Assembly: GCA_015956445.1 (NCBI GenBank)
Contig: WIUZ02000014.1
Span: forward strand, 186,001 to 250,000
Source of the DNA: Thelephora terrestris
Taxonomy: Eukaryota; Basidiomycota; Agaricomycetes; Thelephorales; Thelephoraceae
Reading direction: 5' to 3'
Length of the DNA: 64,000 nucleotides
The notes under the pieces are model-generated. The model was not told the DNA's origin, did not search any database, and saw only the letters and a list, made by a program, of their open reading frames with translations. This document shows positions 9,276 to 62,627 of the stretch, piece after piece (within the stretch, counting starts at the first letter, position 1; every line of letters starts with the position of its first letter). The position numbers and the translations under genes are program-made.

Positions 9276-9781
9276 GGGGTCGTGAAACGGGCGTGTGTGT
9301 GGGATAAGTGGATGTCAGGTTTTCGGGGAGTAGGACGCACGTATCCGATACCATCGATATCTCTGTTGATGATGGGCGTAGTACTCCTGACTCTGGATCA
9401 CCCGTGTTCGAGCGTCACCGGCACCGGTTTACGTAGAAATTCACATAATGGACAGTCGCCCGGCACCTTCATCGGCGCGCGGGAAAAACGAGTTAGTCTC
9501 CGCTTCGAGGATGGCCAGTGACTTCGATCAGCACTGGCTTTTGGGGGGTGGGCCATTGCCGGCCCAACACCACGTCGTCCTCGTGTCCTGCCGCGCAAAC
9601 CACTTCCAAATCAAGTCGCGGCGATACCTGGGTATGTAAAGTCGACGGCCCCGTGGCGTGCGTCCCTTTTGCGCATGGTAGCGGGACACCAATTGCACGC
9701 CCATAAAACCGCCCCTCCCCCCCTCGCCCTGATACCTCTCAAATGAGTCTTTCAGCTCTCGTCTGTACGTCTCAAACCTAA
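9276..9781. other. upstream region between EEP hydrolase and kinase-like gene
   Basis: This gap of about 500 bp separates two divergent genes and probably holds the first exon of the EEP hydrolase plus both promoters. An 86-codon minus-strand frame (9528-9788) may contain part of that exon but has no recognisable motif. Nothing else was seen. Confidence 0.4.
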
Positions 9782-26551: not shown

Positions 26552-28352
26552 TCATCTACGAGCTGGCAGGCCAAGATACATTGAAAAACCAAAAGAAATC
26601 GCAGTCAAAAACGCTCCCGCCAGCCCGCCTACCTGGAGCCCGACGGTGCTAGAGTCTAATAGGAAGGCGGAGCCCGGGAACGCGACAAAAACCGACCCTA
26701 TATCAAACGCAGTGGAGGTACAATAACAACTGTCGAACAGGCCCACAAACTCGCAGAAACAAAGCAAGAGAACGCCGATCCCGGACACGATTGCGACGGA
26801 TTGCCCTAACCGCCGACAAATCACAGCTCCAGTGTCGAAGGAACGTGCAGCAATCTTCCCAGATGGCGGCCGAGACATGTGGGCGAGGACGCTTGATGTC
26901 AGGAAGAGGAAGAATGATAATGTCCCTGCTGCACCGTACAACAGGAATGAGAAAGAACGACACCCCAATCCGGTGGGCGGTACCGAGTAACTGAAGAGCA
27001 CCGCACCACCAACAGTTCCCCACTGCAACCCAATAGCAAGGATGGAGGCAACCGTGACTCGTTTCCAAATACCGGGCGCCCATCTGCAGGGAGTTATGAG
27101 TCCATGCTCGCGAAGTGTGCCCGCGGTGTCGGTCGTCCCCCGGTACTCTGGGTTCCCCTCGGGCGGTTGAAGAACCATTGTACAATAACCGGTGACTTCG
27201 TCGGTCGTCCCGACTCGATTCGCGGGGAGTATTGCGTCTTCTCTGCTTCCCACTCGCATTTGAACCTCCGCACGCAGACAATTGCTGACTGGTATTCTGA
27301 GTTTTGCATTTGCGGCGGCTTTTCTCACCAGGCTTGATAGTACCTCCGCATTCGTCGCGGTAACGAAGGCTCGCGAATAATTGAACAGCGCAACCGGTTT
27401 GAGTTCGTCGTTCCTAGAAAGATCCACGTCGTCTTCCTCCGCGAATTCTATCGCCTTGGGGCTTGTAATCTCCGCGGGCTGGTCCCTCCGCTCAGTGGCA
27501 ACACAGGCGTTTCGATTCGCTTTGGCCAGGCAATTCCTGAGATGGCTTGGTTCGGGCTCATACCCAATGTACAGCCATCCGATGACGAGCGGAAGGAGGA
27601 AGGTCCATATGGCGGCGATGCCGTATCCGGTGTTTCCGCCTCGTGAGATGATGGTGTTTGCTATGGTCAGGATATAGGAGATGATAGCCAAGATAACGCT
27701 CAAGACGAGGGTTATGGACCATTGGCGGGTCTTGTTTGCAGGTTCGAGTAGAGACCAGTACTCATCGTTCTTGGCGAGGGCGATTAAGGAGTGGAGAAAA
27801 GGAGATTTATATTCTATCTTGATGGGGATGTGATGGAAAGCCGCCAATGCTGTTGCTACAAGCTTGGAATTGGGATATTTCACGTCCAAGAATGCTGTGG
27901 TGATCCAACATTTGTTGAGGTGGGTAATTTGGAGGGAGTAGGCTGCAAGAGCGGGCGAGCCCATGGTTATTAGAAAGGAGACAACGTCATCCAACGGTCC
28001 TGGTTGGTGCATACTAAGAGTCAGCGCAACATAAAAGCATAGTATTGATACATACGCTCTGCGCTGAACGGGATATGGAACATAAGCGAGATCCATGGGA
28101 GGAGCCACGTGTCATAGTTTTGGGAGAAGTTGACTTGTCCCATGCCTGACCCACACCCCAACAGGCACTGTTCATATGAGCCATGCAATGTGGGAGAAGA
28201 GTCCGCGGCAATCGTCACGTTCTGCGCTATGTTTATGTTTTGTTGGCATTTGTTGAATAGGAAGAGAATTGCTGTTGTAGGTTAGACGGTTGCACATAAG
28301 CATTAGAATACTTCCCCGACACACCTTTGGGGGCTAGCTCTGAAGATCGCAT
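26552..28352 (-). CDS. multi-pass membrane protein of an unnamed fungal family
   Basis: The likely start is MRSSELAPK at 28352, with an intron into AILFLFNKCQQ, then SYEQCLLGCGSGMGQVNFSQ and WLLPWISLMFHIPFSAE (about 28100), a 55-bp intron, and one long exon to the stop at 26552. That exon begins GPLDDVVSFLITMGSPALAA and codes for several transmembrane helices: LVLSVILAIISYILTIA (about 27690), IAAIWTFLLPLVIGWLYIG (about 27590), and four or so near the C-terminus (about 27060-26580). A Cys pair lies in SCYCTS. The long hydrophilic loop holds an FNYSRAFV motif. I know this layout from unnamed Agaricomycete proteins; the function is unknown. A decayed copy lies on the plus strand at 43613-45464. 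Confidence 0.75.
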
Positions 28353-43612: not shown

Positions 43613-45464
43613 ATGTCAGAGACATCTCATCCTTCGTTTATGACTGTAGTGGCCCTTATCCTTCAATTTGTGATACACCCCCAATGCGTGCTTGCTGTCA
43701 ATCTCGGGGCATGCTGCGGTAAACTGCAGGGCCCGCCGCCGCCGAATATCACAGACCTTCCTCCTGGTCCCGGGCCCCCTCCACTGAATGTCTCGTATGA
43801 ACAGTGCCTCATGGTGTGTGGAGCTGGGATGGGCGACGTTAACTGGCAAGATTTCTCGCAAAATTTCGGCGCGTGGTTCCTGCCATGGATCTCTCTAATG
43901 TTCCAGATCCCCTTCGGTGCAGAGCGTAAGCCTCAGCTCCTTACCTTTGCATTTTGTCTTACAAAGGCATGTTTCGGCGAACAGAGCCATTGGATGATGC
44001 CCTCTCCTTCTTCATCACCATGGGTACACCCGCTCTTGCCGCGTACTCCCTCCAAATCACACACCTCAACAAGTATTGGATCCACAGAGAGTTCCTGGAT
44101 GTCAAGTATGCGAACTCCAAACTCATTCCGACCGCACTCGCGGCTTTTCACCACATCCCCGTAAGGATAGAACACCAACCTCCGTTTCTCCACTCTTTAA
44201 TTGTGCTCCCCGAAAACGATGCGTTCTGGTCTCACCTCGCGGCCGCGAACAAAACTCGCCGATGGTCTGTCCCGCTCGTCATGAGCTACATCCTGGTCAT
44301 CTTCTCGGTGATCCTGACCACGATAGGTCCACTCACCTCACCCCCCGGGTCCACCGGATATAGCATCGCTGCTGTCTGGACCTTCCTTCTCCCGCTCGTC
44401 ATCGGTTGGCTGCACGTTGGGTGCGAACCCGAGCCTAGTCATCTCAGGAAATCCCTGGAGGCCGCCAACCAGAAGTCGTGGGTCTCCACCGGATGTAGGG
44501 ATCATCCTACGCCGACGAATATCATGGCCATCGAATTCGCGAAGGCTGACGCCGTCGCAAGTAGGATGAGCTCAAGCCGGTGCCGGTGTTCAATTATGCG
44601 CGAGCCTTCTCCACCCCTATGGTTGCGGAAGTGGTCCTGGGGTTGATGAAGAATGCCGCCGAAAACGCGAAACAGAAGTTACCGGTCGGCAGTTCTGTGG
44701 GTGGGGGGATCCCAGGGTGGGTGGAGAGTGATAATGGCCAGATATACCCCGGGAATCGGGCTGGGACCACCGCCGAAGTTATCGATTATTGTACGAGGTC
44801 CTACAACAGCCGGAACGGAACCGGGATTCTATCACCCCCCTTGATATCCAGTCTATCGAGATGACCGACGCCACTTATCCTCCCCACGGCTATGGTCTGA
44901 TCACCCCCTCCAGGTGGGCACCAGGAATCTGGAGACGGGTCTTTATCGCATCCACTCTTGCTCTTGGGTTGCAGTGGGGGACCGCTGGCGCCGCGGTTTT
45001 TATCCATTATAAATCGCCCCCAGTGGGTTTGGGATGCCGCTCACTCTCGTTCCTGCTGTACGCCATGACCGGAACTCTGTCGTTTTTTCCTCTTTTTGGC
45101 ATCGAGTATCCTCGCTCACATGTCTCGGCCCCCGCAAGGACGGATGCCTACTCAGTCGCGGTCACGTACCTGCTGGACTGCCGGGGCGAACGTTTGCAGA
45201 TGGCTAGGGAAATTTACGGCGATCGCCTCGGCGGTCGGAATCATGCTGATATGTTTCTTCATCGTCACCGGTGCATTCGACAGCTGTTTTTGTAATTCTA
45301 CTACTTTTGACAGGGGAAGGCAATTGATCATTATAGATGGGATGAACGCTGTACCAAATCCTAGCCTCTTGTTTTGGATTGGGGGGTTAGTCGTGGCGTT
45401 TCTCACTTCGATCTTGTTTGGTTTCTCGATGTACATGGGTCTGCCTCCCCGACGATATGAGTAG
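43613..45464 (+). pseudogene. decayed paralogue of the 26.5-kb multi-pass membrane protein
   Basis: The ATG at 43613 begins a signal-anchor sequence (FMTVVALILQFVIHPQCVLA) unlike that of the paralogue. From SYEQCLMVCGAGMGDVNWQD on (about 43795), the sequence follows the gene at 26552-28352 closely: LPWISLMFQIPFGAE, an intron, LDDALSFFITMGTPALAAYS, HFNK-type loop, AAVWTFLLPLVIGWLHVG, FNYARAF, GLITPSRWAPGIWRRV and a C-terminal Cys pair with FGFSMYMGLPPRRYE. The reading frame changes three times: near 44560, between about 44790 and 44820, and near 45095. No intron fits these places, so the gene looks broken although its sequence is still close to the intact copy. Sequencing errors could mimic this, but three in one gene is unlikely. 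Confidence 0.75.
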
Positions 45465-47474: not shown

Positions 47475-47726
47475 GAACGGTAAACCATGCAGTGTCGGCC
47501 GTATCCAACTTGAACAAACCGTCAACATCCCCGTCGAGATTCCCACGGGATCATTGATAACTAGTAGCGCCGACAAGCGGCATGGCCCACGACTCGTGGC
47601 CTAACCCTTCATCGCTTTGAGCCATCACCGTGTATGAGACAATTACATTTTTCTTTGGATCTTTATAAATGTACAGTTATGATGCCTCACATATAATCCC
47701 TCCTCGGGCCGCTCACAAAACATAGT
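47475..47726. other. gap between the F-box gene and element A
   Basis: It contains the 3' UTRs of the F-box gene and, on the minus strand, of the host gene that element A interrupts. That gene's stop codon reads TGA at 47715-47713 on the minus strand. The target duplication ATAGT of element A is at 47722-47726. Confidence 0.55.
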
Positions 47727-48934
47727 TGTCACGAACGCGTGACATAATAGGCAAGATCACACAAATAGTTCAGGACATTGGTCGCATTCGCAGTAATAAT
47801 AGTACAAAGAGGACTAACAAAAACTACAAGTTCAGACGAGCACGAAAGGATCTACATCACAAGCGCAATTCTGAGCCATCGGACAACGATGAGCAAAGTG
47901 GTGAGGGTTGTGTACGCTCTGAGGACAGTACGAATAGTCCCGAGTTACCGGATCCTGCCAACACTCCCTACACCCCAACACGTCATGGTACAAGCTATCA
48001 TACATCTCCCGTTTCACGTCCGACAAGGCTGCGCTCACTAATGCGAACCCATAACGGTCTTGGAGACCCGCCACTTCCACCTTCAACTTCATCCGAACCT
48101 GACGTGACTTGTCAGAGGGACGACAACGTTGACCAGAACGAGTCATTGGACTCTTGCGGTTCTTCTTCTTCTGGGACCTCTCCACCATCTGGCGAACTGG
48201 GGCAGGACTCCAGGGAGGGGATGGAGGGAGAGGAACGCCCTGATCCTGGCGGTGGCGAAGGGATGACTGGGGACTTGCAAGGGGGGTCGGTGCAATAAGC
48301 CCCGTGACATTGGTGTCCGAAATATCGGAAGAGAGATGCCTGGAAAGGTCCCCAATGTTCCAAAGCAAAGTGAGAGAAGTCATCATTCAAGCTGTTCATG
48401 ATGACGTACATGAGGTCCACACGCTTCTCCAGTTTCGCAATCCTATCCTCCCTCTCCCTCTCCATGGCGTCCAACAAGCGGACGGCTCCAGGGTGAAAGG
48501 CTTGAACCCGAGGTCCAGAAAGCCTGGGGTCGTCGTAGCCAGCTTGCTCCCAGAACTCAGCGGGAGCATCGTGGGCGGTGAGGAAACTAATGGCAACCTG
48601 GTTGTCGTGAGCGATGTTGGCAGGGGAGTCATACAAGTGTTGCTCCACGTCGTAGGGAGCGGTCGTCTCGAAGGACGGGGTGAAAGGGGTGGCGGCAGCG
48701 TTGAGCACGGCATTGGTGGCAGCGAAAGAAGACATGATAGTAGGGGATATTTGGAGGGTGGTACTGGTGTTTGGTGGGAGTGGAAAAGAAACGATGAGGG
48801 GAACGATCATTAATCCCCCTGACTTAAATACATCCTGACTCAAAGAAAACCCAAAAGGGGAAAACAAAACCCATTATCCATTAACGTCCCCATTAGGGTA
48901 AACAAACCCTCAACCCCAATCGCGATCCCATCAA

Positions 48935-49075
48935 TTCGGAGAAATTCCCATCGATCATGGGAAATCCCCATTCGTCCTCTATTGCCACCGTGAAACGAGA
49001 GAAATCCCCACCGATCATGAGAAATCCCCATCAGTCTTCTATTACCACCATCGATCGTGAGAAATCCCCATTATG
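48935..49075. repeat. central GAAATCCCC array of element A
   Basis: About seven copies of a motif like (G/A)GAAATCCCCATCGATCATG, in two spacing classes, fill the space between the two divergent promoters. The same array is present in B (50917-51023, inverted) and C (57525-57656). Its place between the promoters suggests binding sites for an element-coded or host protein. Confidence 0.75.
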
Positions 49076-49978
49076 CTCCTAATGACTCCGTTACTATTGT
49101 TCCCCTATTTCTTTTCGCTATCTTTTCGCTCCAAAGTCCCACTCCCCTGACTCGTCCAACCTACCCTAAATTATGCACAGACCATGTTGATTCTTGTTTG
49201 ACTCGTTGTAAAGTAATGACTCCTGTAGAGGATTGGGTATATAAGGAAGAGCGTTCGCTCCTTTCTTTTCCCCCATTCTCAATCTCTTCTGTACTCCTCT
49301 ACCCATAACCTGAATAAAAGTAAGCTGAGGAATTCTCCTCACGCCTTACCTCTTCTGACTCATCTCAGCAGGAATTCTCCTGCCAGTGTATGTTCAGTGC
49401 CCCTAATCCTTTCCCCTCTACTAGCCCAGTCCAACGACCGGTCGTCCCTGACGCCAGAAGATCTATCTGGGAGTATAAACTCATCAGAAGTCTTCAAGTA
49501 AACCGAACAGCCGGCTTACTTACTCATTTCCCCTACTACCGCCCCTTCGCAGCTCTCGACGCCGGGGTCACTACTCCTCCCTTTCTACTAGGAGCGGATC
49601 ATCAATTCCTTTGGAATTCAAATCTTACTGAGAGCGTCCTTGCGACAGTCTACTTCAGTATCAGTCCGGCCTTTTACTTCCCCTCCCCCTCACAACTAAC
49701 ATCCACACCCACTCCCCTGCTATTATCGTTCTTTGGTGGGAAGTCCCAACTGAACTACCTTACTCTGTTATAGAATATCTCGTCAATTTCGAACGTCTTA
49801 GCGACCAAGACTTCGAACCGTTTGTGCAGCAACTCATCCAGTTCTGCCAAGACTACCACTCACCCGTTCACCCCTATCAGACCGAGTCACCCCTCTCTCT
49901 TGACATTCCCCCTCTCCTCGTCTCCACGCCCGGAACCCCCTTCAAAACCAGACCCGATTGTCAGGGTTGTAGGCCTGC

Positions 49979-50602
49979 TTACTGTTTGTGGGGCGCTAGA
50001 GGATTAGCAGCGGGGTGAGGGGTGTCGGGTCTGGTTTTGAAGGGGGTTCCGGGTGTGGAGACGAGGGGAGGAGGGATATCAAGAGAGAGGGGCGACTCGG
50101 TTTGATAGGGATGAACGGGCGAGTGATAGTCTTGGCAGAACTGACTGAGTTGCTGCACAAACGGTTCGAAGTCTTGATCGCTGAGTCGTTCGAAGTTGAC
50201 GAGATATTCTATGACAGAATAAGGTAATTCAGTTGGGATTTCCCACCAAAGAACGATAATAGCAGGGGAATGGGTGTGGATATTAGTCGTGAGATGAACT
50301 CGTGGAGAAGGGAAGTAAAAGGCCGGGCTGATACTGAAGTAGACAGTCGCAAGGACGCTCTCAGTAAGATCTGAATTCCAAAGGAATTGATGATCAGCTC
50401 CTAGTAGAAATGGAGGAGTAGTGACTCCGGCGTCGAGAGCTGCAAAGGGTCGGTAGTAAGGGAAATGAGTAAGTAAACCGGCGGTTCGGTTTACTTGAAG
50501 ACTTCTGATGAGCTTATACTCCCAGATAGATCTTCTGGCGTCGGGGACGACTGGTCGCTGGACGGGGCTTGTAGAGGGGAAAGGGTTAGGGGCACTGAAC
50601 AT
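49979..50602 (-). CDS. element B single gene: 207-residue protein, unknown
   Basis: ATG at 50602; begins MFSAPNPFPSTSPVQRP and ends LAPHKQ 20 bp from the element end. There are no introns. Segments such as SIWEYKLIRSLQVNR, LTHFPYYRPF, FLLGADHQFLWNS and VLWWEIPTELPYSVIEYLV look like a compact folded domain followed by a Pro-rich tail. No match in memory and no catalytic motif seen. The copy in C (57972-58595) has the same length and differs at about a dozen residues by eye, which suggests the frame has been kept by selection until recently. Confidence 0.6.
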   Translation of the reverse strand: MFSAPNPFPSTSPVQRPVVPDARRSIWEYKLIRSLQVNRTAGLLTHFPYYRPFAALDAGVTTPPFLLGADHQFLWNSDLTESVLATVYFSISPAFYFPSPRVHLTTNIHTHSPAIIVLWWEIPTELPYSVIEYLVNFERLSDQDFEPFVQQLSQFCQDYHSPVHPYQTESPLSLDIPPPLVSTPGTPFKTRPDTPHPAANPLAPHKQ

Positions 50603-50916
50603 ACGCTGGCAGGAGGATTCCTGCTGAAATGAGTCAGAAAAGGTAAGGCGTGAGGAGAATTCCTCAGCTTACTTTTATTCAGATTGTGGGTAGAGGAGTA
50701 CAGAAGAGATTGAGAATGGGGAAAAGAAAGCAGCGAACGCTCTTCCTTATATACCCAATCCTCTACAGGAGTCATTACTTTACAACGAGCCAAACAGGAA
50801 TCAACATGGTCTGTGCGTAGTTTAGGGTAGGTTGGGCGAGTCAGGGGAGTGGGACTTTGGAGCGACAAATAACAAGATAAAATAGGAGAACAATAGTAAA
50901 GGAGTCATTAGGGACA

Positions 50917-51023
50917 TAATGGGGATTTCTCGTGATCGGTGGGATTTCTCTCGTTTCATGGTGGCAGTAGAGGACGAATGGGGATTTCCTATGATCGATG
51001 GGGATTTCTCTGAATTGATGGGA
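50917..51023. repeat. central GAAATCCCC array of element B
   Basis: Inverted copy of the array in A, read here as GGGGATTTCTC with GATCGATGG-like spacers; about six units. It lies between the two divergent promoters of B. Confidence 0.7.
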
Positions 51024-51214
51024 TCGCGATTGGGGCTGAGGGTTCGTTTACCCTAATGAGGACGTTTAATGGATAATGGTTTTGTTTTCCCCTTTTGGCT
51101 CCCTTTGAGTCAGGATGTATTTAAGTCAGGGGGATTAATGATTGTTTCCCCCCATCGTCTCTTTTCCACTCCCACCAAACCTCAGTACCATCTTCTCCAA
51201 ACACCACCACTACT

Positions 51215-51952
51215 ATGTCTTCTTTCGTCGCCAACAACGCCGTGCTCAATGTCGCCGCCACCCCTTTCACTCCGTCCTTTGAGACGGCCGCTCCCTACGA
51301 CGTGGAGCAACACTTATATGATTCCCCTGCCAACATCGCCCATGACAACCAGGTTGCCGTCAATTTCCTCACCGCCCACAACGCCCCCGCCGAGTTTTGG
51401 GAACAGGCTGGTTACGAAGACCCTAGGCTTTCTGGGCCTGTGGTCCGGGCTCAACACCCTGGAGCCGTCCTTTTATTGGACGCCATGGAGAGGGAGAGGG
51501 AGGATCGGATTGCGAAATTGGAGAAGCGGGTGGACCTCATGTACGTCATCATGAACAGTTTGAATGATGACTTCTCTCACTTTGCTTTGGAACATTGGGG
51601 ACCTTTCCAGGCATCTCTCTTCCGATATTTCGGACACCAGTGTCACGGGGCTTATTGCACCGACCCCCCTTGCAAGTCCCCAGTCATCCCTTCGCCACCG
51701 CCAGGATCAGGGCGTTCCTCTCCCTCCCTCCCCTCCCTGGAGTCCTGCCCCAGTTCGCCAGATGGTGGAGAGGTCCCAGAAGAAGAAGAACCGCAAGAAT
51801 CCGATGACTCGTTCTGGTCAACGCTGTCGTCCCTCCGACAAGTCACGTCAAGTTCGGATGAAGTTGAAGGTGGAAGTGGCGGGTCTCCAAGACCGCTATG
51901 GGTTCGCCTTAGTGAGCGCAGCCTTGTCGGACGTGAAGCGGGAGATGCATGA
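51215..51952 (+). CDS. element B first frame of the gene pair: 245-residue acidic protein, unknown
   Basis: ATG at 51215, about 95 bp after a TATTTAAG box (51117-51124). The protein begins MSSFVANNAVLNVAATPF, has a YDVEQHLYDSPANIAHDNQV segment, a charged helix (DAMEREREDRIAKLEKRVDL) that may be a coiled coil, then DDFSHFALEHWGPFQASLF and a Ser/Pro/Glu-rich tail. I do not recognise it. The last 389 bp overlap another open frame (51564-52118). Corresponding frames exist in A and C. Confidence 0.55.
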   Translation: MSSFVANNAVLNVAATPFTPSFETAAPYDVEQHLYDSPANIAHDNQVAVNFLTAHNAPAEFWEQAGYEDPRLSGPVVRAQHPGAVLLLDAMEREREDRIAKLEKRVDLMYVIMNSLNDDFSHFALEHWGPFQASLFRYFGHQCHGAYCTDPPCKSPVIPSPPPGSGRSSPSLPSLESCPSSPDGGEVPEEEEPQESDDSFWSTLSSLRQVTSSSDEVEGGSGGSPRPLWVRLSERSLVGREAGDA

Positions 51953-52118
51953 TAGTCTATATCATGATGTGTTGGGGTGTAGGGAGTGTTGGCAGGATCC
52001 GGTAACGCGGGCGTGGTCTTACTGTCCTGAGAGTATTCATAACCCTCACCACTTCGCTCATCGTTGCCCTCTCCCTCAGCACTGTTCATGTGATGTTGAC
52101 CCGTTTGTTCTTGTCTGA
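51564..52118 (+). CDS. element B second, overlapping frame: 184-residue Cys/His-rich protein, unknown
   Basis: This frame is one base ahead of the first frame and starts at an ATG inside it. The N-terminal half is Ser/Pro/Arg-rich; the C-terminal half reads KLKVEVAGLQDRYGFALVSA, then LGCRECWQDPVT and HNPHHFAHRCP with further Cys residues, suggesting a small metal-bound knuckle. The same overlap with the same two lengths occurs in element C. Both frames stay open over hundreds of bases in separate copies, so both may be coding; how the second is expressed is unknown. Confidence 0.5.
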   Translation: MMTSLTLLWNIGDLSRHLSSDISDTSVTGLIAPTPLASPQSSLRHRQDQGVPLPPSPPWSPAPVRQMVERSQKKKNRKNPMTRSGQRCRPSDKSRQVRMKLKVEVAGLQDRYGFALVSAALSDVKREMHDSLYHDVLGCRECWQDPVTRAWSYCPESIHNPHHFAHRCPLPQHCSCDVDPFVLV

Positions 52119-52293
52119 GTTTGTAGTTCTTTCTAACCACTCTTGTACTATTATTACTGCGAATGAGACCAATGTCTTTGATTACTTGTGAGATCTTGGC
52201 TACTATGTCACGCGTTCGTGACACCGATACCCCTCACCCATCCACTAATCCTCTAGCGCCCCACAAACAGTAAGCAGGCCTACAACCCTGACA

Positions 52294-53530
52294 ATAGTCG
52301 TCCTTTTGCTCGTCCACTTCACTTGCGTTCCCAAACTCCTCTGCCACATTCTCGATGCCAAATGCGTGGGGTCCCTCCTGCGACGCCTCCGTCTTGAAAT
52401 CCTCTGCAGGGTCCTTGAGAACTATCACGGCCAAGATGTTGAAGTACATTGCAAACACGACATCTTTGGGCAAATCTCTCGTGGCCTTAGCTTTTGCCCC
52501 CAGCCCTCCCCTCTTGACCGAGAACAATACCATTACTGTGCTCCCCACTTTTACCTCTTCTTTGTATGGTTTCTCCCAGAAGGCTCTCAGCTTGAATTGC
52601 TCGCGCCCATCAAAGGTTGGGACTGGATCTCAAATGAGTGCGCAAAGGCAAAAAAGTGGGGTTCCACACTCACTGTCCACACCATCTTTCAGCTCTGGTC
52701 CTTCGATGGGACCCCCCGTACTTTTGCTACGTCTTCTACTGCCTTTGGAGTTGCTGAACTGGCTGGTGGCGAAGGATACACCTTCCTGGAAGGTCGGAAA
52801 GAACAGAGTGGTTGTTCCATAGACACTCGCCAGCACCGCAACAAAGCGATGGCATCCGTGAGCTGAAGGAGTGATGCATATTTGTTTGATCCCGCCCGAT
52901 GAGAAATAGCATGCTTCGCCTAAAAGGGTGCTGAGAAAGGCTGAGAACCCACAAACCTGTGTCCTTCGACAGCAAGTATCCAGAGGTGGGATTGAAGCTC
53001 AGATTTCCCGGATCTTGTAGCGCCACATTCACGATGCCTCCCTCTGGGTGTTTCAACGGCATGTTGGGGTGAGCTGCGCATGCCAGGAGGCGTCTGCGGA
53101 CATTGTTAGTTGAGATCACTCAATAGTGTGGGCACGAACCTCGCGTGGGCTGGAGGATGCATCTCCAACATATTTACCACCGGCACAACGAACAATTCAA
53201 ACACTCCTTCTCCTGGGGCTCCCGTGATCGCACTCGCGCCCTTCAAAACTTTCAGTGCGCTGTGGAAGTTTATCAGCAAAGTGAGGTACGCCTTCATCGG
53301 ATGCCATACGCAAATGGGTTGTCGCTGAAGTTGAAAGCGTTAGACATTGTGTCTCTGAGGAAAGAAAGAAATACACACTTTATCACTTCCTGGACGGTAT
53401 GTGCGGCTTCGTTACCATCTCCGCTGTCCTCCAAGGCTGGAGAGCCGGTGGGAACCTGGGCGTCGTGACCTCCTCCCTCCAATTGCTCGGGCGTTACGAT
53501 CACATTCACCTTCCGAATCCGAGTGGAGCG
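52294..53530 (-). pseudogene. decayed host gene interrupted by element A just before its stop codon
   Basis: Minus-strand exons run from about 53530: VIVTPEQLEGGGHDAQ, an intron, NAFNFSDNPFAYGI (about 53340), MKAYLTLLINFHSALKVLKG (about 53290), an intron, RLLACAAHPNMPLKHPEGG (about 53080), GIVNVALQDPGNLSF, TTLFFPTFQEGVSF (about 52800), DPVPTFDGREQFKLRAFW (about 52620), VMVLFSVKRGGLGAKAKA and VFAMYFNILAVIVLKD (about 52460), reaching EVDEQKDDY at 52300. A one-base frame change between NPFAYGI and MKAYL and an in-frame TGA at about 52636 before DPVPTF show decay. Element A entered after DDY; on A's far side the frame would have ended within three codons (GTT TTG TGA, 47721-47713). I do not recognise the protein. 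The 5' end, above 53530, is unclear and may be lost at the LINE boundary. Confidence 0.62.
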
Positions 53531-53785
53531 CGAGGAGAGGCAGACAAAAGAGCTAACCCGAAAGGGTGCGCGGGAAGGAACGACTCTAAACTTACAGGGG
53601 GAAACAGTTCTTCAGCCAAAAAATGATTGGCGCGAGAACATCCCTTCTTATTTCCGTTCCGCCATCTACTTGCTAGGCGCCCGACTGGGAAATTTCTTTC
53701 AACTACTGGATCCCCCCATCGTGCTCGAGAGATGAGTGGATATTCCACCTTGGCCTCTCATTATGTTCTCCCCAGCCTGTCCTGA

Positions 53786-54205
53786 CCTCCTTTCCGGTCC
53801 AACGCGCACCGTCAGGAGCACGAGGCGATAATCTTTGACCCAGATCCCCCCCCTCGCTCCGACAGTGGACACCGCGCGGCTTCCCTCCCCTTGGGAGACG
53901 GCCGGTGGCCCCGCAAAATCGCGGCACATCTCCATCTACCTCACCATCCCTGGTCCACCGATCTCGCCTCCCCTTCGGAGGACCGAGTCACTTGGGCGCT
54001 CTCGCCGATTTCCTCAGCCACCCCTCCGACGGATCTTCCCGACGAGGCGTATATGATGGGGATCCCCGGACTCCCGGACCCTCCCGTCTTGTCGGCGTGC
54101 GCCACGCCGTGCGATCGCCCCGCCTATATCACTGCCCTTCCCGATTGGCTGATCACTGAGAAAGATTCCGAGCTTGGCCCGAAGCGACGGGCTGGGCGGA
54201 GATAA
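53786..54205 (+). CDS. 3' part of LINE ORF1
   Basis: Open frame of about 139 codons without a convincing ATG, reading EAIIFDPDPPPRSDSGHRAA, then DGRWPRKIAAHLHLPHHPW and CATPCDRPAYITALPDWL, ending in a basic RRAGRR at the TAA (54203-54205). Upstream, a TGA at 53783 ends the frame, so the N-terminal part is missing or in another frame. No CCHC knuckle is visible. The stop overlaps the ATG of ORF2 by one base, a layout that lets ribosomes restart on ORF2. Confidence 0.55.
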   Translation, partial: PPFRSNAHRQEHEAIIFDPDPPPRSDSGHRAASLPLGDGRWPRKIAAHLHLPHHPWSTDLASPSEDRVTWALSPISSATPPTDLPDEAYMMGIPGLPDPPVLSACATPCDRPAYITALPDWLITEKDSELGPKRRAGRR

Positions 54206-56312
54206 TGTCCTCCACTGTCCCCTATTTATTCTCGGGCCCTCTCCCAGCTCCTCCTCCCTTTTCGGACGCCTTTCTCGATCAACCTACAACTGACGCCCTA
54301 TGCCCTCGTATGCAAAATCCCTCTGTACTCTCTCTCTTCTCCCTTAATTGTAACAAAGCAAACTACATTGGACACGCTGTCCTCAACTCTCTTGCACAAA
54401 CATATCATATCATTCTCTTCCAGGAACCTTGGACTGGCCGGATCGGTACAACCAGGTCAGACTCCGACCCTGCTGGGGTTGAAGTCACAGGCCTCGTGCA
54501 TCAATCCAGCTGGAACCAATTTATCCCTGTTCCCCCATCTCACATCCCGCCCCCGAGAGTGGCGGCGTATACTGCTCGCCACAACTCCAACTTTACGTAC
54601 ACCCTCCGATCGGACATCTTCAACCACCCAGACATGATGGCACTTGAGGTTGTCCCAAGGGGCCCACCCCTCAATTGCTTCCTGATCATCAACATCTACA
54701 ATGATTCAAACAACACTGCTCTTGACATCCTCCTCTCCACCCCCCTCCCCCCCATTCCAATCATTCTTGTAGGTGATTTCAACCTGCACCACCCTGCCTG
54801 GTCTGGGAGGGAGACACCTGCCTCCTGCCACTCAGCTAATGCCCTCATTGATTGGGCCTCGGAACTGGGTCTAGTCCTCCTCAATGAGCCAGGAGTCCGA
54901 ACCTTCGAACGGGGCTCTCAGTCTTCCACCATCGACCTCTTTTGGTCTTCCACTTCTCTACTTCCCCTCATACGTGACTGGCAGGTTCATCAAAACTTGG
55001 ACTTCGCCTCAGATCACCTTCCCATCACCGCCTCCCTCTCCCCATTTTCCCCTGATCCTAATCCATCCCCTCCCAAGTTCCTCTTTCACCCCGACAAAGA
55101 GACAGACTGGGGGTTATGCTTCCTGGAGACCCTTAAGGCTAACGCCCCGGCGATGCCAGAAGTTTGCTCCCTGGAACTCCTCCCACCTCTCATTGATCAC
55201 CTACTCAATGCTCTTACTACCGCCTCCTCCCTACACTGCAGCGCCAAACCCCCCACGCCTGGAGCCTCGCCTTGGTTCACCCGAGAAGTCGTTGTGGCGC
55301 TTCGGAAGGTCCGACAAGCTCGCACCATCCTTCACCGCCTGAACAGGCAAGGCGTGACTGGCATCCCTCTTAACAACGCATTCACTACTCTTCGCACCCT
55401 CCGCAATAAGCTCAGACGCACCATCTCGAAAGCCAAGCGAGACTGGGCGCTGAACTTAGCCCATGAGATTGAACCAAACAAGATTTGGACCCTCACAAAC
55501 TGGTACAAGGGGATCCGGCGGTATGCCATGCCCACCCTCGTCAGAAGTGACCGCTCTATGGCCATCACTGACGATGAGAAGGCAGACCTACTCCGTACCT
55601 CCTTCTTCCCTCCTCCTCCTGTCCTTATTTCCGACCCCCTCCCTTCTTACCCTAACCACAACACCCGTCCTTTTCACCCAGTCCTTGAGGAAGAGATTGA
55701 TACCCACCTCAAGGCAACCTCTAATACTTCTGCTCCAGGATCGTCTGGTGTTTCCTACTGGGCCCTCAAGTGGGCCTGGAAGCTGGCTCCAGAATACATC
55801 ACCTATGTCTTGAATTGGTCACTGGCTCTTGGCTTCCACTACCCTCAGTGGAAACAAGCCATCACCGTGGTAATCCCTAAGCCCCACAAGGCTGACTACT
55901 CCAACCCCCGTTCATATCGCCCCATTCAGCTGCTTGAATGCCTCGGCAAACTCCTCGAGAAGGTTGTCGCTAAACAGCTCCTCTATGACTGTTCCAAGTT
56001 GGGCTTAATCCCTCCTGAGCAGTTTGGAGGCGTCTCCTCAGCCTCTTGCCCTGACGCAGGACTGGCTCTGGTGCACGACATCCATGAAGGGCTCAACCGC
56101 GGCCTTTCTCCCTCACTCCTCACCCTTGATGTCAAGGGCTTCTTCGACTCTATCAATCACAACAAGCTCCTCCTCACACTTTATGACATGGGCTTCCCCC
56201 TCCCTCTGGTAGGCTGGGTTGCCTCCTTCCTCTCTGATCGACACTCTGCCCTGAAGATTGGAGACACCGTTGGCCCTATGCTACCCCTTGTTGTTGGGGT
56301 ACCCCAGGGATC
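54205..56312 (+). CDS. LINE ORF2, 5' part: endonuclease and first half of reverse transcriptase
   Basis: The ATG at 54205 overlaps the ORF1 stop. After a Pro-rich start, the AP-endonuclease domain reads SLFSLNCNKANYIGHAVL (about 54330), ILFQEPWTG (the catalytic Glu, about 54410), ILVGDFNLHHPAWSG (about 54765) and SDHLPITASL (about 55010). A linker with a basic helix follows, then the reverse transcriptase: APGSSGVSYWALKWAWK (about 55735), AITVVIPKPHKADYSNPRSY (about 55860), RPIQLLECLGKLLEKVVAK, LLTLDVKGFFDSINHNKLL (motif A Asp, about 56120) and GVPQGS, where element C cuts in at 56313. The frame has no stop over 2.1 kb. Confidence 0.9.
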
Positions 56313-56417
56313 TGTCACGAACGCGTGACATAGTAGCCAAGATCTCCCAAGTAATCCAAGACATTGGTCTCATTCGCAGTAGTAATAGTACAAGGGTAGT
56401 TAACAAAAACTACAAAT

Positions 56418-56972
56418 TCAAACAAGAACAAACAGGTCGATATCGCACGAACAGTTCTGGGGCAAAGGGCAACAATGAGCGAAGTGGTGAGGGTTATGAA
56501 TACTCTCAGGACAGTAAGACCACTCCCGCGTTACCGGGTCCTGCCAACACTCCCTACATCCCAACACATCGTGAGACAGACTATCATACATCTCCCGTCG
56601 CACGTCCAACAAGGCCCTGCTCACTAAGGAGAACCCATAGCGGTCTTGGAGACCCGCCACTTCCACCTTCAACTTCATCCTCACCTGCCGTGACTTGTCG
56701 GAGGGACGACAACGTTGACCAGAACGAGTCATCGGACTCTTGCGGGTCTTCTTCTTCTGGGACCTCTCCACCATCTGGCGAACTGGGGCAGGACTCCAGG
56801 GAGGGGATGGAGGGAGAGGAATGCCCTGATCCTGGCGGTGGCGAAGGGACGACTGGGGACTTGCAAGGGGGGTCGGTGCAATAAGTCCCGTGACATTGGT
56901 GTCCGAAATATCGGAAGAGAGATGCCTGGAAAGGTCCCCAATGTTCCAAAGCAAAGTGAGAGAAGTCGTCAT
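56418..56972 (-). CDS. element C second frame of the gene pair (Cys/His-rich)
   Basis: 184 residues, same length as the frame at 51564-52118 of B. It starts with TSLTLLWNIGDLSRHLSSD and ends in the Cys/His-rich part (LGCRECWQDPVT, SIHNPHHFAHCCP). It lies inside and beyond the end of the first frame. Expression mode unknown. Confidence 0.5.
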   Translation of the reverse strand: MTTSLTLLWNIGDLSRHLSSDISDTNVTGLIAPTPLASPQSSLRHRQDQGIPLPPSPPWSPAPVRQMVERSQKKKTRKSPMTRSGQRCRPSDKSRQVRMKLKVEVAGLQDRYGFSLVSRALLDVRREMYDSLSHDVLGCRECWQDPVTREWSYCPESIHNPHHFAHCCPLPQNCSCDIDLFVLV

Positions 56973-57321
56973 TCAAACTGTTCATGATGACGTACATAAG
57001 ATCCACCCGTTTCTCCAATTTCGCAATCCGATCCTCCCTCTCCCTCTCCATGGCATCCAATAGACGAACGGCTCCAGGGTGCTGAGCACGGACCGCAGGC
57101 CCAGAAAGCCTGGGATCTTCGAACCCAGCTTGCTCCCAGAACTCGGCAGGGGCGTTATGGGCGGTGAGGAAGTTAATGGCAACCTGGTTGTCATGGGCAA
57201 TGTTGGCAGGGGAGTCATACAAATGTTGCTCCACATCGTAGGGAACATCCGCTTCGAAGGACGGGGTGAAAGGGGTGGCGGCAGCGTTGAGAACGATGTT
57301 GTTAGCAGCGAAAGAAGACAT
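56584..57321 (-). CDS. element C first frame of the gene pair
   Basis: 245 residues, same length as in B (51215-51952). It begins MSSFAANNIVLNAAATPF and keeps the charged helix and Ser/Pro/Glu-rich tail. A TATTTAAG box stands upstream on the minus strand (about 57405-57415). Unknown function. Confidence 0.55.
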   Translation of the reverse strand: MSSFAANNIVLNAAATPFTPSFEADVPYDVEQHLYDSPANIAHDNQVAINFLTAHNAPAEFWEQAGFEDPRLSGPAVRAQHPGAVRLLDAMEREREDRIAKLEKRVDLMYVIMNSLNDDFSHFALEHWGPFQASLFRYFGHQCHGTYCTDPPCKSPVVPSPPPGSGHSSPSIPSLESCPSSPDGGEVPEEEDPQESDDSFWSTLSSLRQVTAGEDEVEGGSGGSPRPLWVLLSEQGLVGRATGDV

Positions 57322-57524
57322 CGTAGTAGATGTTTGGTGAGGAGGGATGGTGGTGATTGTGGGAGTGGAAAAGAGACGATGAGGGGAACGACCACTAAAT
57401 CCCCTGACTTAAATACATCCTGACTCAAAGGAAACCGAAAGGGGAAAACAATAACCTATCGTCTATTAACGACCCTATTAGGATAAACGAACCCTCAACC
57501 CCAATCGAGGTCCCATCAATTCAG

Positions 57525-57656
57525 AGAAATCCCCACCGATCATGGGAAATCCCCATCCACCTTCTACTGCCACCGTGAAACGAGAGAAATCCCCATCGAT
57601 CATGGGAAATCCCCACCAGTCTTCTATTACCGCCGTCGATCGTGAGAGATCCCCAT
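57525..57656. repeat. central GAAATCCCC array of element C
   Basis: About six units of GAGAAATCCCCATCGATCATG type between the divergent promoters, matching the arrays in A and B but with base changes in most units. Confidence 0.7.
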
Positions 57657-57971
57657 TACGCTTCTAATGACTCCTGTACTATTGTTCCCCTATTTCATTT
57701 CGTCACTCATCGTTCCAAAGTCCCACTCCCCTGACTTGTCCAACCTACCCTAAACTACGCACGGACCATGTTGACTTCTGTTTGACTCGTTGTAAAATAA
57801 TGACTCCTGTAGAGGATTGGGTATATAAGGAAGAGCGTTCGCTCCTTTCTTTTCCCCATTCTCAATCTCTTCTGTACTCATCTACCCATAACCTGAATAA
57901 AAGTAAGCTGAGGAATTCTCCTCACGCCTTACCTTTCTAACCCACCTCAGCAGGAATCCTCCTGCCAGTGT

Positions 57972-58595
57972 ATGTTCAGCGCCCCAAATCCTTTCCCCTC
58001 TACTAGCCCAGTCCAGCAACCAGTTATCCCTGACGCCAGAAGGTCTATCTGGGAGTATAAACTCATCAGGAGTCTTCAAGTAAACCGAACTGCCGGTTTA
58101 CTTACCCACTTCCCTTACTATCGACCCTTTTCGGCCCTCAACGCCGGAGTCACCACCCCTCCCTTTCTACTAGGCGCGGATCATCAATTCCTTTGGAATT
58201 CAGATCTTACTGAGAGCGTCCTCGCGACAGTCTACTTCAGTATCAGTCCGGCCTTTTACTTCCCTTATCCACGTGTTCATCTCACGACTAACGTCCACAC
58301 CCATTCCCCTGCTATTATCGTTCTTTGGTGGGAAATCCCAACTGAATTACCTTACTCTGTCATAGAATATCTCGTCAGCTTCAAACGTCTTAGCGACCAA
58401 GACTTCGAACCGTTTGTGCAGCAACTCAGCCAATTCTGCCAAGACTACCACTCGCCAGTTCACCCCTATCAAACCGAGTCACCCCTCGCTCTTGATACCC
58501 CTCCTCTCCTCGTCTCCACGCCCGGAACCCCCTTCAAAACCAGACCCGACACCCCTCACCCATCCGCTAATCCTCTAGCGCCCCACAAACAGTAA
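57972..58595 (+). CDS. element C single gene: 207-residue protein, unknown
   Basis: ATG at 57972, 142 bp after the TATA box, stop 20 bp from the element end. Same length as in B. Most differences from B are conservative (R/Q, V/I, D/N, I/V), which suggests selection on the protein rather than neutral drift; a real count of synonymous and other changes was not possible here. No family recognised. Confidence 0.6.
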   Translation: MFSAPNPFPSTSPVQQPVIPDARRSIWEYKLIRSLQVNRTAGLLTHFPYYRPFSALNAGVTTPPFLLGADHQFLWNSDLTESVLATVYFSISPAFYFPYPRVHLTTNVHTHSPAIIVLWWEIPTELPYSVIEYLVSFKRLSDQDFEPFVQQLSQFCQDYHSPVHPYQTESPLALDTPPLLVSTPGTPFKTRPDTPHPSANPLAPHKQ

Positions 58596-58615
58596 GCAGG
58601 CCTCCAACCCTGACA

Positions 58616-60709
58616 GGATCCCCAGTCTCCCCAATCCTCTCTGTGATCTACACTGCCCCAATTCTGAGGGAATTGATCGACATCCTACCACACTCTGTTG
58701 CAGGACTCCAGGTTCTGGTCAAATCGTACATTGACGACTTCTCCTTACTTGCCATGTCCTCTTCAGCAGACGAAAACATATCCCTCCTCACTGTTGGCCT
58801 ACATCAGGTCGTCTCACTTCTCCAGGGTGTGGGGATGAGGATTGACCCGGGAAAATCAGAACTTATCCACTTCTCCCGTAAAACTCCCCCCCCCTCCCCT
58901 CCTCTCATCACCAATGCTTACGGAGAACTCCTGGTCATACCCCCGGCCAAGGATTACCTCCGTTGGCTGGGAATCTTCTTTGACCCTAAACTCCACTTTC
59001 AACACCATGTTCGGATCATGTCCAACCGGGCGGCGTCGGTGGCTAATGGGATCAGGGTCCTCGCCAACACGGTGAGGGGCTTGTCCCAGCGGCACCTCCG
59101 CATCCTGGTGAAGACATGCGTCATCCCCATCCTCACCTACGCTTTCCCTCTCTGGTTCGCGGCGCGGTTTCCCAACCAGTCTCTCAACCGCCTCCAAGTG
59201 ATCCTCAACCGCTGCACCATACATGTCTCAGGGGCATTCCGCACTGCTCCCACTCCTGCCACCCAAGCCCTCTCACACATTCCCCCAATATCCCTCACTC
59301 TCGCACGGCTACGCCAGAAGGCAGCGGCCCGCCTCCTCAAACTCCCTTTTTCTGCTCTCATTTCACAACGTCTCCCGGACACTTGGAGGGGCGGCGTCTC
59401 TGGCGCCTCCCCCTTCAAGACTCTGGAAACCCTACCACACAACCCAAAGACATTCAGACAACTTTCCCCTCTCACTCAACTCTCCAAACGTTCGAATCCT
59501 AAGGGTGAACGCCTGTTCCCCTTTGCTTCAGAATGTGCTCCATTCATTCCCCAACTCACCAACACCTCACACTACCCTTCCTTTTTCTTGGACCCTGACC
59601 CTGTTGGGTCTTCTGGCTCTGAGGAACGGGAGGGATACGCCTCTCGCATCAACTCCCTCCTAAACCAGCGGGACAAGGACAAAGTCAACTACATCTTTTG
59701 CGATGGTTCATACAAGTCGGACAGGGGGGGTGCTGCCATGGTTGCGTACCTAGGCACAAGCCCTGCCCTAACCACTCCAGACTTTCAAATCACTGTTGGC
59801 ACTGGCCGACGTTCTACAGCCTACGACGGTGAGATGCTAGCCTTAGTGCTGGCCAGCCGCCGTGCCCTCCTCATTAGTCGTGATCGGAGCCTCCCTAGGG
59901 AGATTGTGATCTACTCTGACTCATCGTCCGCACTTAGCAATATTACCTTGCCGGGACCCCACCCAGGCCAACTCTTCTCCCTTATCTTCATCAAAAACAT
60001 CAAAGAGGCCCTATCAAACTCCACTTGCTCCATATCCCTTAGGTGGTCCCCAGGACACGCAAAGGTCCAAGGCAACGAGCTCGCCGACACCCTGGCCAAG
60101 GAAGCTAGCATGCTCCCTCGCCCACGTCAGGTCGGAGCTCCCACCCAAGCCTTCCTCTCTCTCAAATCCAAAGTTACAGTTTCAAAGGGCTGGGAAAAGC
60201 GGGTTAAGGCTCTCAAGCCAACGCCCGGTACTGGTTTCCTCCAACCCACCCACTTCGATGAACTTGGCAATGCCACTCCCACACCTCACCTTGCCTACCC
60301 CTCTCGCAACAACCCCACAGAGGTCTTCAAAGAGACCCCTCGAGAGGTCTTTGTGAGAGCCACCCAGGTTCTTACGGGCCATGGCTACATTGGCTCCTAC
60401 TACTACCGCTTTAACATCCCCGACACTTCCCCTTGGTGTAAGTGCTCTGCACCTGGAGCTCCAGTCCTCCACACCAGAGAACATGTCCTCCGGGAGTGCC
60501 CCCGCCACTCCTCACACCGTCACCTCATCGCCGATGTAGACGACTTGCTTCATGACCCGACGTGGAGTGCGGACAGATTAGGTGAACCGAAGTCCCACTT
60601 GCCGGCTCTAGTTAGCTTCTTGTCTGCGTCTGGTGCTTTCACAAAACTCGATATCCCATTTGCCCTAAACCTCATCCTTCCTCCACCACGGCCAAGGAAG
60701 CCGCCCTGA
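58616..60709 (+). CDS. LINE ORF2, 3' part: rest of reverse transcriptase, RNase H and Cys/His knuckle
   Basis: Directly after element C the reading frame resumes with SPVSPILSVIYTAPILREL, followed by the catalytic YIDDFSLLA box (about 58725), GVGMRIDPGKSELIHFS and YLRWLGIFFDPKLHFQHHV, the thumb region. The RNase H domain carries its acidic residues in IFCDGSYKSDRGGAA (about 59695), TAYDGEMLALVLA (about 59820), IYSDSSSAL (about 59915) and WSPGHAKVQGNELADTLAKE (about 60045). The C-terminus has CKCSAPGAP with HTREHVLRECPRH, a Cys/His knuckle typical of I/Tad elements. The stop is at 60709. Confidence 0.9.
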   Translation, partial: GSPVSPILSVIYTAPILRELIDILPHSVAGLQVLVKSYIDDFSLLAMSSSADENISLLTVGLHQVVSLLQGVGMRIDPGKSELIHFSRKTPPPSPPLITNAYGELLVIPPAKDYLRWLGIFFDPKLHFQHHVRIMSNRAASVANGIRVLANTVRGLSQRHLRILVKTCVIPILTYAFPLWFAARFPNQSLNRLQVILNRCTIHVSGAFRTAPTPATQALSHIPPISLTLARLRQKAAARLLKLPFSALISQRLPDTWRGGVSGASPFKTLETLPHNPKTFRQLSPLTQLSKRSNPKGERLFPFASECAPFIPQLTNTSHYPSFFLDPDPVGSSGSEEREGYASRINSLLNQRDKDKVNYIFCDGSYKSDRGGAAMVAYLGTSPALTTPDFQITVGTGRRSTAYDGEMLALVLASRRALLISRDRSLPREIVIYSDSSSALSNITLPGPHPGQLFSLIFIKNIKEALSNSTCSISLRWSPGHAKVQGNELADTLAKEASMLPRPRQVGAPTQAFLSLKSKVTVSKGWEKRVKALKPTPGTGFLQPTHFDELGNATPTPHLAYPSRNNPTEVFKETPREVFVRATQVLTGHGYIGSYYYRFNIPDTSPWCKCSAPGAPVLHTREHVLRECPRHSSHRHLIADVDDLLHDPTWSADRLGEPKSHLPALVSFLSASGAFTKLDIPFALNLILPPPRPRKPP

Positions 60710-61022: not shown

Positions 61023-62627
61023 ATGTCCAGGACGACGATGAAAGCCGAATCGAGTAAACAGGCAAAAAAGCCCAAGAGCGCTGTCGGCGCACCGTCGCAA
61101 CTCTCACAAAACGCTCGGAAAGGCAAGAAGGCATGGAGGAAGAACATTGACATCGATAATGTCGAGGAGGGCCTCGAGACAATCCGGTCCGAGGAGCGGG
61201 TCTTGGGAACGGCATTGCACAATCAGCCCGACAAAGACTTGTTTACGGTCGACGTCACTGGTGATGAGGGAGGTGAGTCTCCTGTGGTTGTCCGAACTCT
61301 GCATAACAGTGAAGTTGACGCTCGAGTTATAGCCAGGCGTAGATTACCGAGGTTCTCAAAGGCTCAGTTGACTTCGACGAAAATTCTGTCGCAGAGATCC
61401 GCAGTTCCCGCCGTCATCTCACGCGTGACGAAGAAACCCCCAGTCAGCTACAAGCAGAAGGGAAAACTGTTGCAGATAGCTCGGCGGGCCCGACGCGGGC
61501 CATTTAAAGCGATCATAGACCCCACGGAGTTCGGAGCTGGTAGCGCTCTCATAGATGTATCAGAGGCGGTGAAGAAGAGCGGAAAATACGACATCTGGGA
61601 GGAGGATATCGAGATGTTGGACATAAAGGTTAGTCGAACCATCGTTTTTGTTCATCCCAGGACTGAAGAAGATCATGAAGGCACCCTCAACTTCGCACCC
61701 ACGTTCTGTAATCGAGCTCCCTGCCATTTCTACTCCCCACCAAGGCGCTTCGTACAACCCGCCCGCAGACGCACATCAAGTCCTGCTGCGTACAGCGCAC
61801 GAAATGGAGGAGGAGGAAACTAAGGGTGCGGATGAAGGTCGAGACGTCCACGAGAGGATGATGCAGGCTCGACAACTCGGTGAAGTCACCCCAGAAGGTT
61901 TACCCCCCGGTATGATCCTTCACGGTGTTGAGGAAGAGGAGGAGGAGGAAACTGCAACGCCTCTGGTGAAGCCCATCCCTACCAGGAAAACAAAACAACA
62001 ACGGAGGAAGGCCCAACGGGCTTTTGAAGAGGTGAGTCTCTTTCCAGTCTCCTCGAAAGTGGACCACGTCAATTCATTAATCAATATATACGACGTGTAG
62101 AAACGGGCTGCAGCTGAGAAATCAGTGAAGCGAAAACTTCTGGCCTCCGTGTTCACGGCCAAGTCGATGCGAAAAACTCTAGAACAATCAGCGGCCTCAA
62201 AAGAGAAACAGCGCGACGAGAAGCGGAGGATTCTTCGAGAGAAACTCAAACGGGGCGTAGCGGGTCAGAGATTTGGGAAACATACAGTGCAGAGGGCGAA
62301 GATTGACGTCCAACTTGGAGAAGATCTCACGGACAGCCTGAGGGGTTTGAAGGTTAGTTTTCTGCCAGTCTCGATCTTAAGCCCCACGGGGACTTGAACC
62401 GATTTTGCAACACGCAGCCGGAAGGTAACTTGTTTAGGGATCGTTTTTTGAGCATGCAGAACCGCGCTTTGATTGAGCCTAGGGTCCCTGTGATGTGAGT
62501 CATTGAGCCGTCCTTCTATCCTTCCCACCCAGAGTGGCTAACCTACATCTTTAGGCCTAAGAAACGACTGAACAGGTATAAAGAGGTCGAGAAACACGCG
62601 TGGAAAAACTTTGAAAAGGAGACATAG
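61023..62627 (+). CDS. NOP53: 60S ribosome biogenesis factor NOP53 (GLTSCR2 family)
   Basis: ATG at 61023 (MSRTTMKAESSKQAKKPK). The family's N-terminal block GKKAWRKNIDIDNVEEGLET and EERVLGTALHNQPDKDLFTV (about 61120-61255) is followed by an intron, then SKAQLTSTKILSQRSAVPAV (about 61350), RRGPFKAIIDPTEFGAGSAL (about 61490) and SGKYDIWEED. Further exons code for acidic and Lys/Arg-rich helices (RKTKQQRRKAQRAFEE; KRKLLASVFTAKSMRKTLEQ) and the C-terminal block LGEDLTDSLRGLK, DRFLSMQNRALIEPRVPVM, KKRLNRYKEVEKHAWKNFEK, stop at 62627. About five introns. Nop53 acts in the nucleolus on pre-60S particles and recruits the exosome helicase Mtr4 for 7S rRNA trimming. The gene is whole, but its upstream region was cut short by the LINE. 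Confidence 0.9.

Follow-up and report, generated by a model that had tools for sequence, protein, structure and literature searches.

A 64-kb stretch of the Thelephora terrestris genome (contig WIUZ02000014.1, positions 186,001 to 250,000; the window) contains three copies, A, B and C, of one 2.27-2.30 kb unit within 11 kb. The unit carries a rightward gene, R, and a leftward gene, L, with two overlapping frames, L1 and L2, and is bounded in each copy by a target-site duplication (TSD). Taken together, the ends, the TSDs, the order of promoter and poly(A) signal and the predicted leader RNA are best fitted by a single large long terminal repeat (LTR). The copies are probably solo LTRs of a Gypsy-type retroelement with chromovirus-like ends, whose LTR would have reached about 2.3 kb through the inclusion of complete accessory genes. 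Terminal repeats ordinarily hold control signals and no genes; an LTR with divergent genes that selection has preserved, including two in overlapping frames, would be unusual.

Three insertions with common ends

Self-comparison of the window places copy A on the plus strand in two parts (47727..49958 and 52229..52293), copy B on the minus strand (49959..52223) and copy C on the plus strand (56313..58615). Copy B is nested in A in inverted orientation and splits it, the right end of A resuming past the second CCGAT of B. With copy A joined, pairwise identity is 88.7-88.8% over about 2.3 kb, and blastn detects no further copy of the unit in the window. Perfect 5-bp TSDs flank all three: ATAGT for A (47722..47726 left, 52294..52298 right), CCGAT for B (49954..49958, 52224..52228) and GGATC for C (56308..56312, 58616..58620). 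By simple arithmetic, the chance of three exact 5-mers is about 1e-9. TSDs of this length are usual among Gypsy elements. The terminal sequences TGTCACGAACGCGTGACA and AACCCTGACA are the same in A, B and C in the three-copy alignment, and the initial annotation was right to describe three 2.3-kb copies with common ends, each within its own perfect duplication.

The ends, TGTCACG...CCTGACA, match on both sides and in all three copies the motif TGTYANR...CNTNACA, described as the recognition motif of Sushi chromovirus integrase (PMC3601003), with a chance of about 1e-3 per end. Between the two ends of the unit, the inverted match is 5 bp. No direct repeat of at least 40 bp links both ends of one copy, so that the terminal repeats of the terminal-repeat retrotransposon in miniature (TRIM) type are absent at that length. 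A pattern search finds the left end to be a palindrome, TGTCACG-AACG-CGTGACA (7+4+7), at 56313..56330 on the plus strand in C and also at 47727-47744 and 52206-52223; the pattern TGTNAC-N0-12-GTNACA has three matches in the window, all at the left ends of the copies.

Copy C sits in the VPQGSP stretch of the reverse transcriptase (RT) of a long interspersed nuclear element (LINE), and the LINE frame is restored when the flanks of C are joined (...VGVPQGSPVSPILSVIY...YIDD). The LINE itself (54205-60709) has endonuclease, RT and RNase H domains, with its frame open on either side of C. Copies A and B together form a long inverted repeat (47727-52293), which could yield double-stranded RNA.

Genes R, L1 and L2 are preserved by selection

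Frames were taken from the frame listing, the three copies were aligned over 2310 columns and substitutions were counted per codon. Gene R encodes 207 amino acids (aa) in C (57972..58595, plus strand) and lies at 49979-50602 (minus) in B; in A the alignment places it from 49390, with its frame disrupted by a 10-nt deletion and by the insertion of B. L1, with 245 aa in C (56584..57321, minus), is found at 51215-51952 (plus) in B and at 48112-48735 (minus) in A, where it stops 38 codons short of the B/C version and has 207 aa. L2, with 184 aa in C (56418..56972, minus), lies at 51564-52118 (plus) in B and at 47832-48386 (minus) in A. All three frames are open in B and C. The earlier description of the same divergent genes and promoter array in every copy holds for the presence of the genes and of the repeat array, and fails for the state of copy A, in which R is broken and L1 shortened.

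Variation in the three frames is concentrated at third codon positions. In R, these account for 57 of 74 variable columns, and the ratio of nonsynonymous to synonymous substitution rates (dN/dS) between copies is 0.04, 0.10 and 0.08. The corresponding values are 45 of 67 columns with dN/dS of 0.11, 0.10 and 0.07 for the L1-only stretch, and 37 of 58 with 0.07, 0.08 and 0.18 for the L2-only stretch. Control frames in the R, L1 and L2 stretches give 0.65-9.2, with the exception of antisense frames that mirror the third positions (0.10-0.38). R, L1 and L2 are real genes preserved by selection, with dN/dS of 0.04-0.18 outside the overlap, and the several long conserved frames seen initially are confirmed by the codon analysis. 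Because dN/dS is low, the divergence of the copies should mostly predate their insertion, and the copies should descend from diverged lineages, each of which retained the genes.

One further candidate gene, a frame on the plus strand covering columns 3-569 (left edge), was rejected, being open in all three copies without protein constraint. Opposite the L2-only stretch its dN/dS is 1.3-9.2, and over columns 3-108 variation is even across codon positions (8, 7, 8), with dN/dS of 0.34-0.83.

L1 has a helical middle, predicted with low confidence, a Cys/His patch and an acidic stretch at residues 109-207 (isoelectric point, pI, 4.3). L2, which overlaps L1 in another frame, is basic (pI 9.0) and has a Cys/His cluster at residues 139-176.

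The L1/L2 overlap and a candidate intron

The stretch shared by L1 and L2 measures about 270 nt in A and about 390 nt in B and C. Within columns 390-660, 10 of 271 columns are variable (3.7%), compared with 21.0% in columns 109-389 and 19.2% in columns 661-1009. Synonymous differences between A and B fall in the L1 frame from 29/79 outside to 3/64 in the overlap (Fisher P 2e-6) and in the L2 frame from 27/59 to 3/66 (Fisher P 4e-8; rounded counts in both tests), a reduction in each frame of at least about eightfold. Such depressed variation is as expected from dual coding, with which it would fit. The best low-variation block spans columns 319-742, with a log-likelihood gain of 33; on a coarse grid the gain is 32.1, and none of 60 shuffles exceeds 7.7. 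Two observations count against dual coding: this block exceeds the overlap in width, and dN/dS within the overlap is uninformative with so few changes (0.20-1.55 in the L1 frame, 0.21-0.41 in the L2 frame). Gene conversion or a nucleic-acid signal, with no dual coding, is an unlikely source of the low variation at columns 390-660; the comparison of just three copies and the width of the change-point block would suit it, but the block spans the L1/L2 overlap and both frames are open there in every copy.

The L2 frame has an ATG immediately past a stop at column 660. As a second possible route to L2, a candidate 70-nt intron, GTACGT...TTTCCAG, is recognizable from its sequence at 56926..56995 on the minus strand (columns 683-614), and its splice sites are unchanged across the three copies. 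Its splicing would bring the L2 frame in phase behind L1 residues 1-108, giving a protein of 277 aa. L1 and this putative L1N-L2 product would have a common N-terminal half, for which the low-confidence prediction is helical, followed by a C-terminal part that is either acidic (pI 4.3) or basic and Cys/His-rich.

Control region and predicted leader RNA

Pattern matching locates a TATA-like box of the leftward gene (TATTTAAG) at 57408..57415 on the minus strand and the TATA box of the rightward gene, TATATAA, at 57822..57828 on the plus strand. Positioned between the two boxes is an array of repeats around GAGAAATCCCC, delimited by alignment and pattern matching (57513..57658, plus strand, in C; 48928-49073 in A; 50917-51021 in B). 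The pattern has five matches in A, two in B and five in C, the array of B being 41 nt shorter. An AATAAA, the proposed poly(A) signal, follows 74-75 nt past the rightward TATA box (57896..57901, plus strand). Among the 41 TATAWA matches on both strands of the window (palindromic TATATA being scored on each), four have AATAAA 20-100 nt downstream, namely those of the three copies and 1 of the 38 others.

The AATAAA is located at the foot of a predicted structured leader RNA, which comprises an outer stem and two hairpins (57893..57984, plus strand, in C; 49310-49402 in A; 50590-50682, minus strand, in B). The z-scores of the predicted fold are -4.4 (C), -3.6 (A) and -3.3 (B), with 0, 0 and 1 of 200 shuffles, respectively, folding equally well. 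Variable columns make up 6.5% of the leader, versus 16.9% of the array and 12.1% of the R gene, and none of the 8 variable leader columns is paired in the centroid structure of A (P 0.0014). A competing interpretation reads the same stretch as a 48-49-nt intron in the 5' untranslated region (GTAAGC...CTRAC...CAG). At the gathering threshold, Rfam contains no family matching in the window. At a loose threshold, six matches appear between 47600 and 58700, all under the gathering score; the best, MIR5635 (49881-50101), corresponds to the A/B inverted repeat and was rejected.

Searches for relatives, domains and folds

No convincing relatives of R, L1 or L2 are found in the protein, profile or genome libraries searched, in agreement with the initial annotation, which recognised none of the proteins and saw no integrase. 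In IMG/VR, pattern matches number 0 (R), 4 (L1), 38 (L2 alignment) and 148 (L1 alignment), with no tblastn relatives; in GTDB genomes they number 35 (R alignment) and 45 (L2 alignment), again with no tblastn relative. These two collections cover viruses and prokaryotes. Sequence searches of the PDB give no match for R alone and otherwise E values of 0.03 or worse, and Pfam and NCBIfam give weak matches for L2 alone, at E 0.04 or worse and far under the cut-offs; both sets are taken as chance. PHROGs has no match to the unit proteins. A Pfam scan of L1, L2 and R from copy C, and of L1 and R from copy B, finds no integrase family. The AlphaFold models, with a mean predicted local distance difference test score of 31 (R) and 45 (L1), are too poor to judge the fold. 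Separately, the region past the Nop53 frame contains a weak L2-like stretch at 62161-62385 (E 0.01, filter off; 30% over 92 aa), perhaps basic low complexity.

A probable large gene-carrying LTR

An LTR consists of the sequence 3' of the polypurine tract (PPT), U3, and the sequence 5' of the primer-binding site (PBS), R-U5. Between the two origins proposed initially, a giant solo LTR or an element moved by an integrase supplied in trans, the LTR is favoured because the ends fit the chromovirus integrase motif and the layout of promoter and poly(A) signal is LTR-like; the initial proposal is in this respect partly supported. We infer the LTR identity and its internal borders from this layout. 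U3 would occupy approximately columns 1-1545 of the alignment, the R region 1545-1610 and U5 1610-2310, which would place gene L in antisense orientation inside U3 and gene R inside U5. The RNA genome would then run in the order R, structured leader, gene R, (PBS, gag-pol, PPT), antisense gene L, repeat array and promoter, R. Since gene L would follow the PPT and gene R precede the PBS, reverse transcription would copy both into each LTR; an antisense gene of the sort that plant Gypsy elements have between pol and the 3' LTR (PMC7264820) would join the LTR, given a PPT upstream of that gene.

Gene L would be transcribed leftward from its own TATA box, and its overlapping frames would yield two products: L1, which is acidic, and L2, which is basic and rich in Cys/His and might be made as an L1N-L2 fusion by splicing of the 70-nt intron. 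To judge from charge, Cys/His content and position, L1 and L2 are probably regulators or nucleic-acid-binding factors acting on the shared repeat array, through which they would control transcription, and gene R, the first frame on the sense transcript, may encode an accessory protein. Recombination of two long LTRs would leave solo copies with the genes kept (B, C) or partly lost (A). Full-length copies are predicted to have a PBS directly past ...CCTGACA and a PPT directly ahead of TGTCACG.

Several points weigh against a large LTR and its structured leader. Self-comparison of the whole window and domain scans of 19 frames find no full-length copy, PBS, PPT, gag or Gypsy pol, and self-comparison of the 64 kb reveals no two direct copies flanking a PBS-gag-pol-PPT region. 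Copies A and C share an orientation and lie about 4 kb from each other, but their individual TSDs mark them as independent insertions, not as one pair of LTRs. Translation of gag does not sit easily with a complete sense gene placed before it in U5. As the three copies are homologous, their AATAAA placement amounts to a single observation. The minimum-free-energy folds of A and B place variable column 48 in an extra 3-bp hairpin; the leader stems are invariant, with no compensatory changes among the three copies, and hence provide no covariation evidence. The leader intron, if spliced, would be lost on retrotransposition of spliced RNA.

Comparison with known systems

Accessory coding sequence within the U3 of an LTR, being beyond the PPT, is represented by sag of mouse mammary tumour virus and nef of lentiviruses. 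Unlike the genes here, these are sense-oriented and single, with nothing in U5. The LTRs of Gypsy chromoviruses of the Sushi type, as described in PMC3601003, are alike in their TGTYANR...CNTNACA ends and in a TATA-like box followed by AATAAA. They differ in that the unit here is about 2.3 kb long with complete divergent genes inside, and in that AATAAA lies near the 3' end of Sushi LTRs (PMC3601003) but about 700 bp from the 3' end here.

Antisense additional open reading frames (aORF-3R) are reported in the plant elements Grande, RIRE2 and Retand, that of Grande having its own promoter (PMC7264820). They resemble gene L as antisense genes near the element 3' end encoding a protein of unknown function, and differ by lying in the internal region between pol and the 3' LTR (PMC7264820), whereas here the gene would be within U3. 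Non-autonomous LTR elements of the large retrotransposon derivative (LARD) and TRIM types are reported in Boletales, in 3 of 5 genomes (PMC5689174); they are likewise basidiomycete elements, but are reported as non-coding (PMC5689174). Among the matches listed in a literature search of titles and abstract openings, no fungal LTR enclosing complete genes is found.

Revolver of the Triticeae is described as a repeat of 2929-3041 bp that carries a gene, has TGT-type ends and contains TATA and AATAAA; its protein is without homology to known transposases, and its two ends are related to large non-autonomous LTRs, the barley LARD (PMC2851119). The likeness, a gene-carrying repeat with TGT-type ends and no known transposase, is one of kind and by description only. 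Revolver differs in its single three-exon gene of 139 aa (with a reported DDE motif), its 20-bp imperfect inverted ends and its AATAAA at base 2918 (PMC2851119). Ginger DNA transposons are described with TGTNR ends, a 4-bp TSD (5 bp in TDD-4 and TDD-5) and a Gypsy-type integrase (PMC2836005). Their inverted repeats span 40-270 bp in Ginger1 and 50-180 bp in Ginger2, and they encode an integrase-like DDE transposase (PMC2836005). The unit, by contrast, has an end match of 5 bp, and the Pfam scan finds no integrase family in the proteins of copies C and B.

Alternative origins

It is possible, if doubtful, that the unit represents a distinct class of mobile element, in which a pair of divergent genes spanning 2.3 kb, with dual-coded products, LTR-type ends and no recognised recombinase, moves as single-LTR-sized DNA, by a borrowed chromovirus integrase or by an unrecognised enzyme of its own. 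A separate gene-carrying DNA element with chromovirus-LTR-like ends, integrated in trans by a Gypsy integrase encoded elsewhere in the genome, is the main rival but rather unlikely. Its own genes would be there for its expression, for its DNA intermediate or for evading silencing. Two complete divergent genes round a shared control region suggest a small gene element more than an LTR, the ends match the integrase motif, scans of profile libraries place none of the R, L1 and L2 products in an integrase or transposase family, all three copies are without an internal region, and Revolver has been reported as a plant parallel (PMC2851119). Such an element would, however, require a linear DNA intermediate whose source is unexplained, and it offers no obvious role for the AATAAA after the TATA box or for the structured leader.

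A self-contained transposon, with R, L1 or L2 as an unrecognised transposase or integrase, is improbable. All three products are under purifying selection, and no relative in the libraries searched names a function for any of them, but the products are small (184-245 aa, or 277 aa if spliced), library scans find no catalytic domain and the inverted end match is only 5 bp. That the copies are decayed solo LTRs with accidental open frames and no real genes is scarcely credible, since, although the plus frame at columns 3-569 stays open in all copies without constraint, the R, L1 and L2 frames show a third-position excess and dN/dS of 0.04-0.18, against 0.65-9.2 in other frames (antisense mirrors 0.10-0.38).

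Solo LTRs are usually viewed as dead remnants, and LTRs are normally treated as control DNA. If the copies are gene-carrying LTRs, it would follow that solo LTRs remain able to supply their family with trans-acting factors, and the unit would be a retroelement counterpart of antisense viral regulators, outside animals. It would also illustrate how gene-bearing single-LTR units can pass for new transposons, an issue that Revolver has already brought up. Should the element prove independent, it would form a transposon class with LTR-type ends and no recognised enzyme.

Other features of the window

The window also contains what we take to be a mitochondrial NDUFS1-type gene and a Nop53 gene; along with the LINE, these point to eukaryotic and most likely fungal DNA. 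An inverted 1.3-kb pair, 68% identical, lies at 26865-28190 and 43782-45133; its first member is overlapped by a 519-aa frame (26552-28111) with no Pfam match at E 0.001. Regions 9759-13167 and 16214-18911 are related by a diverged direct duplication (about 2.7 kb, two blocks, 82% identity). At 13169-14009, two adjoining direct copies of a 421-bp unit are 99.5% identical and probably represent a recent tandem duplication.

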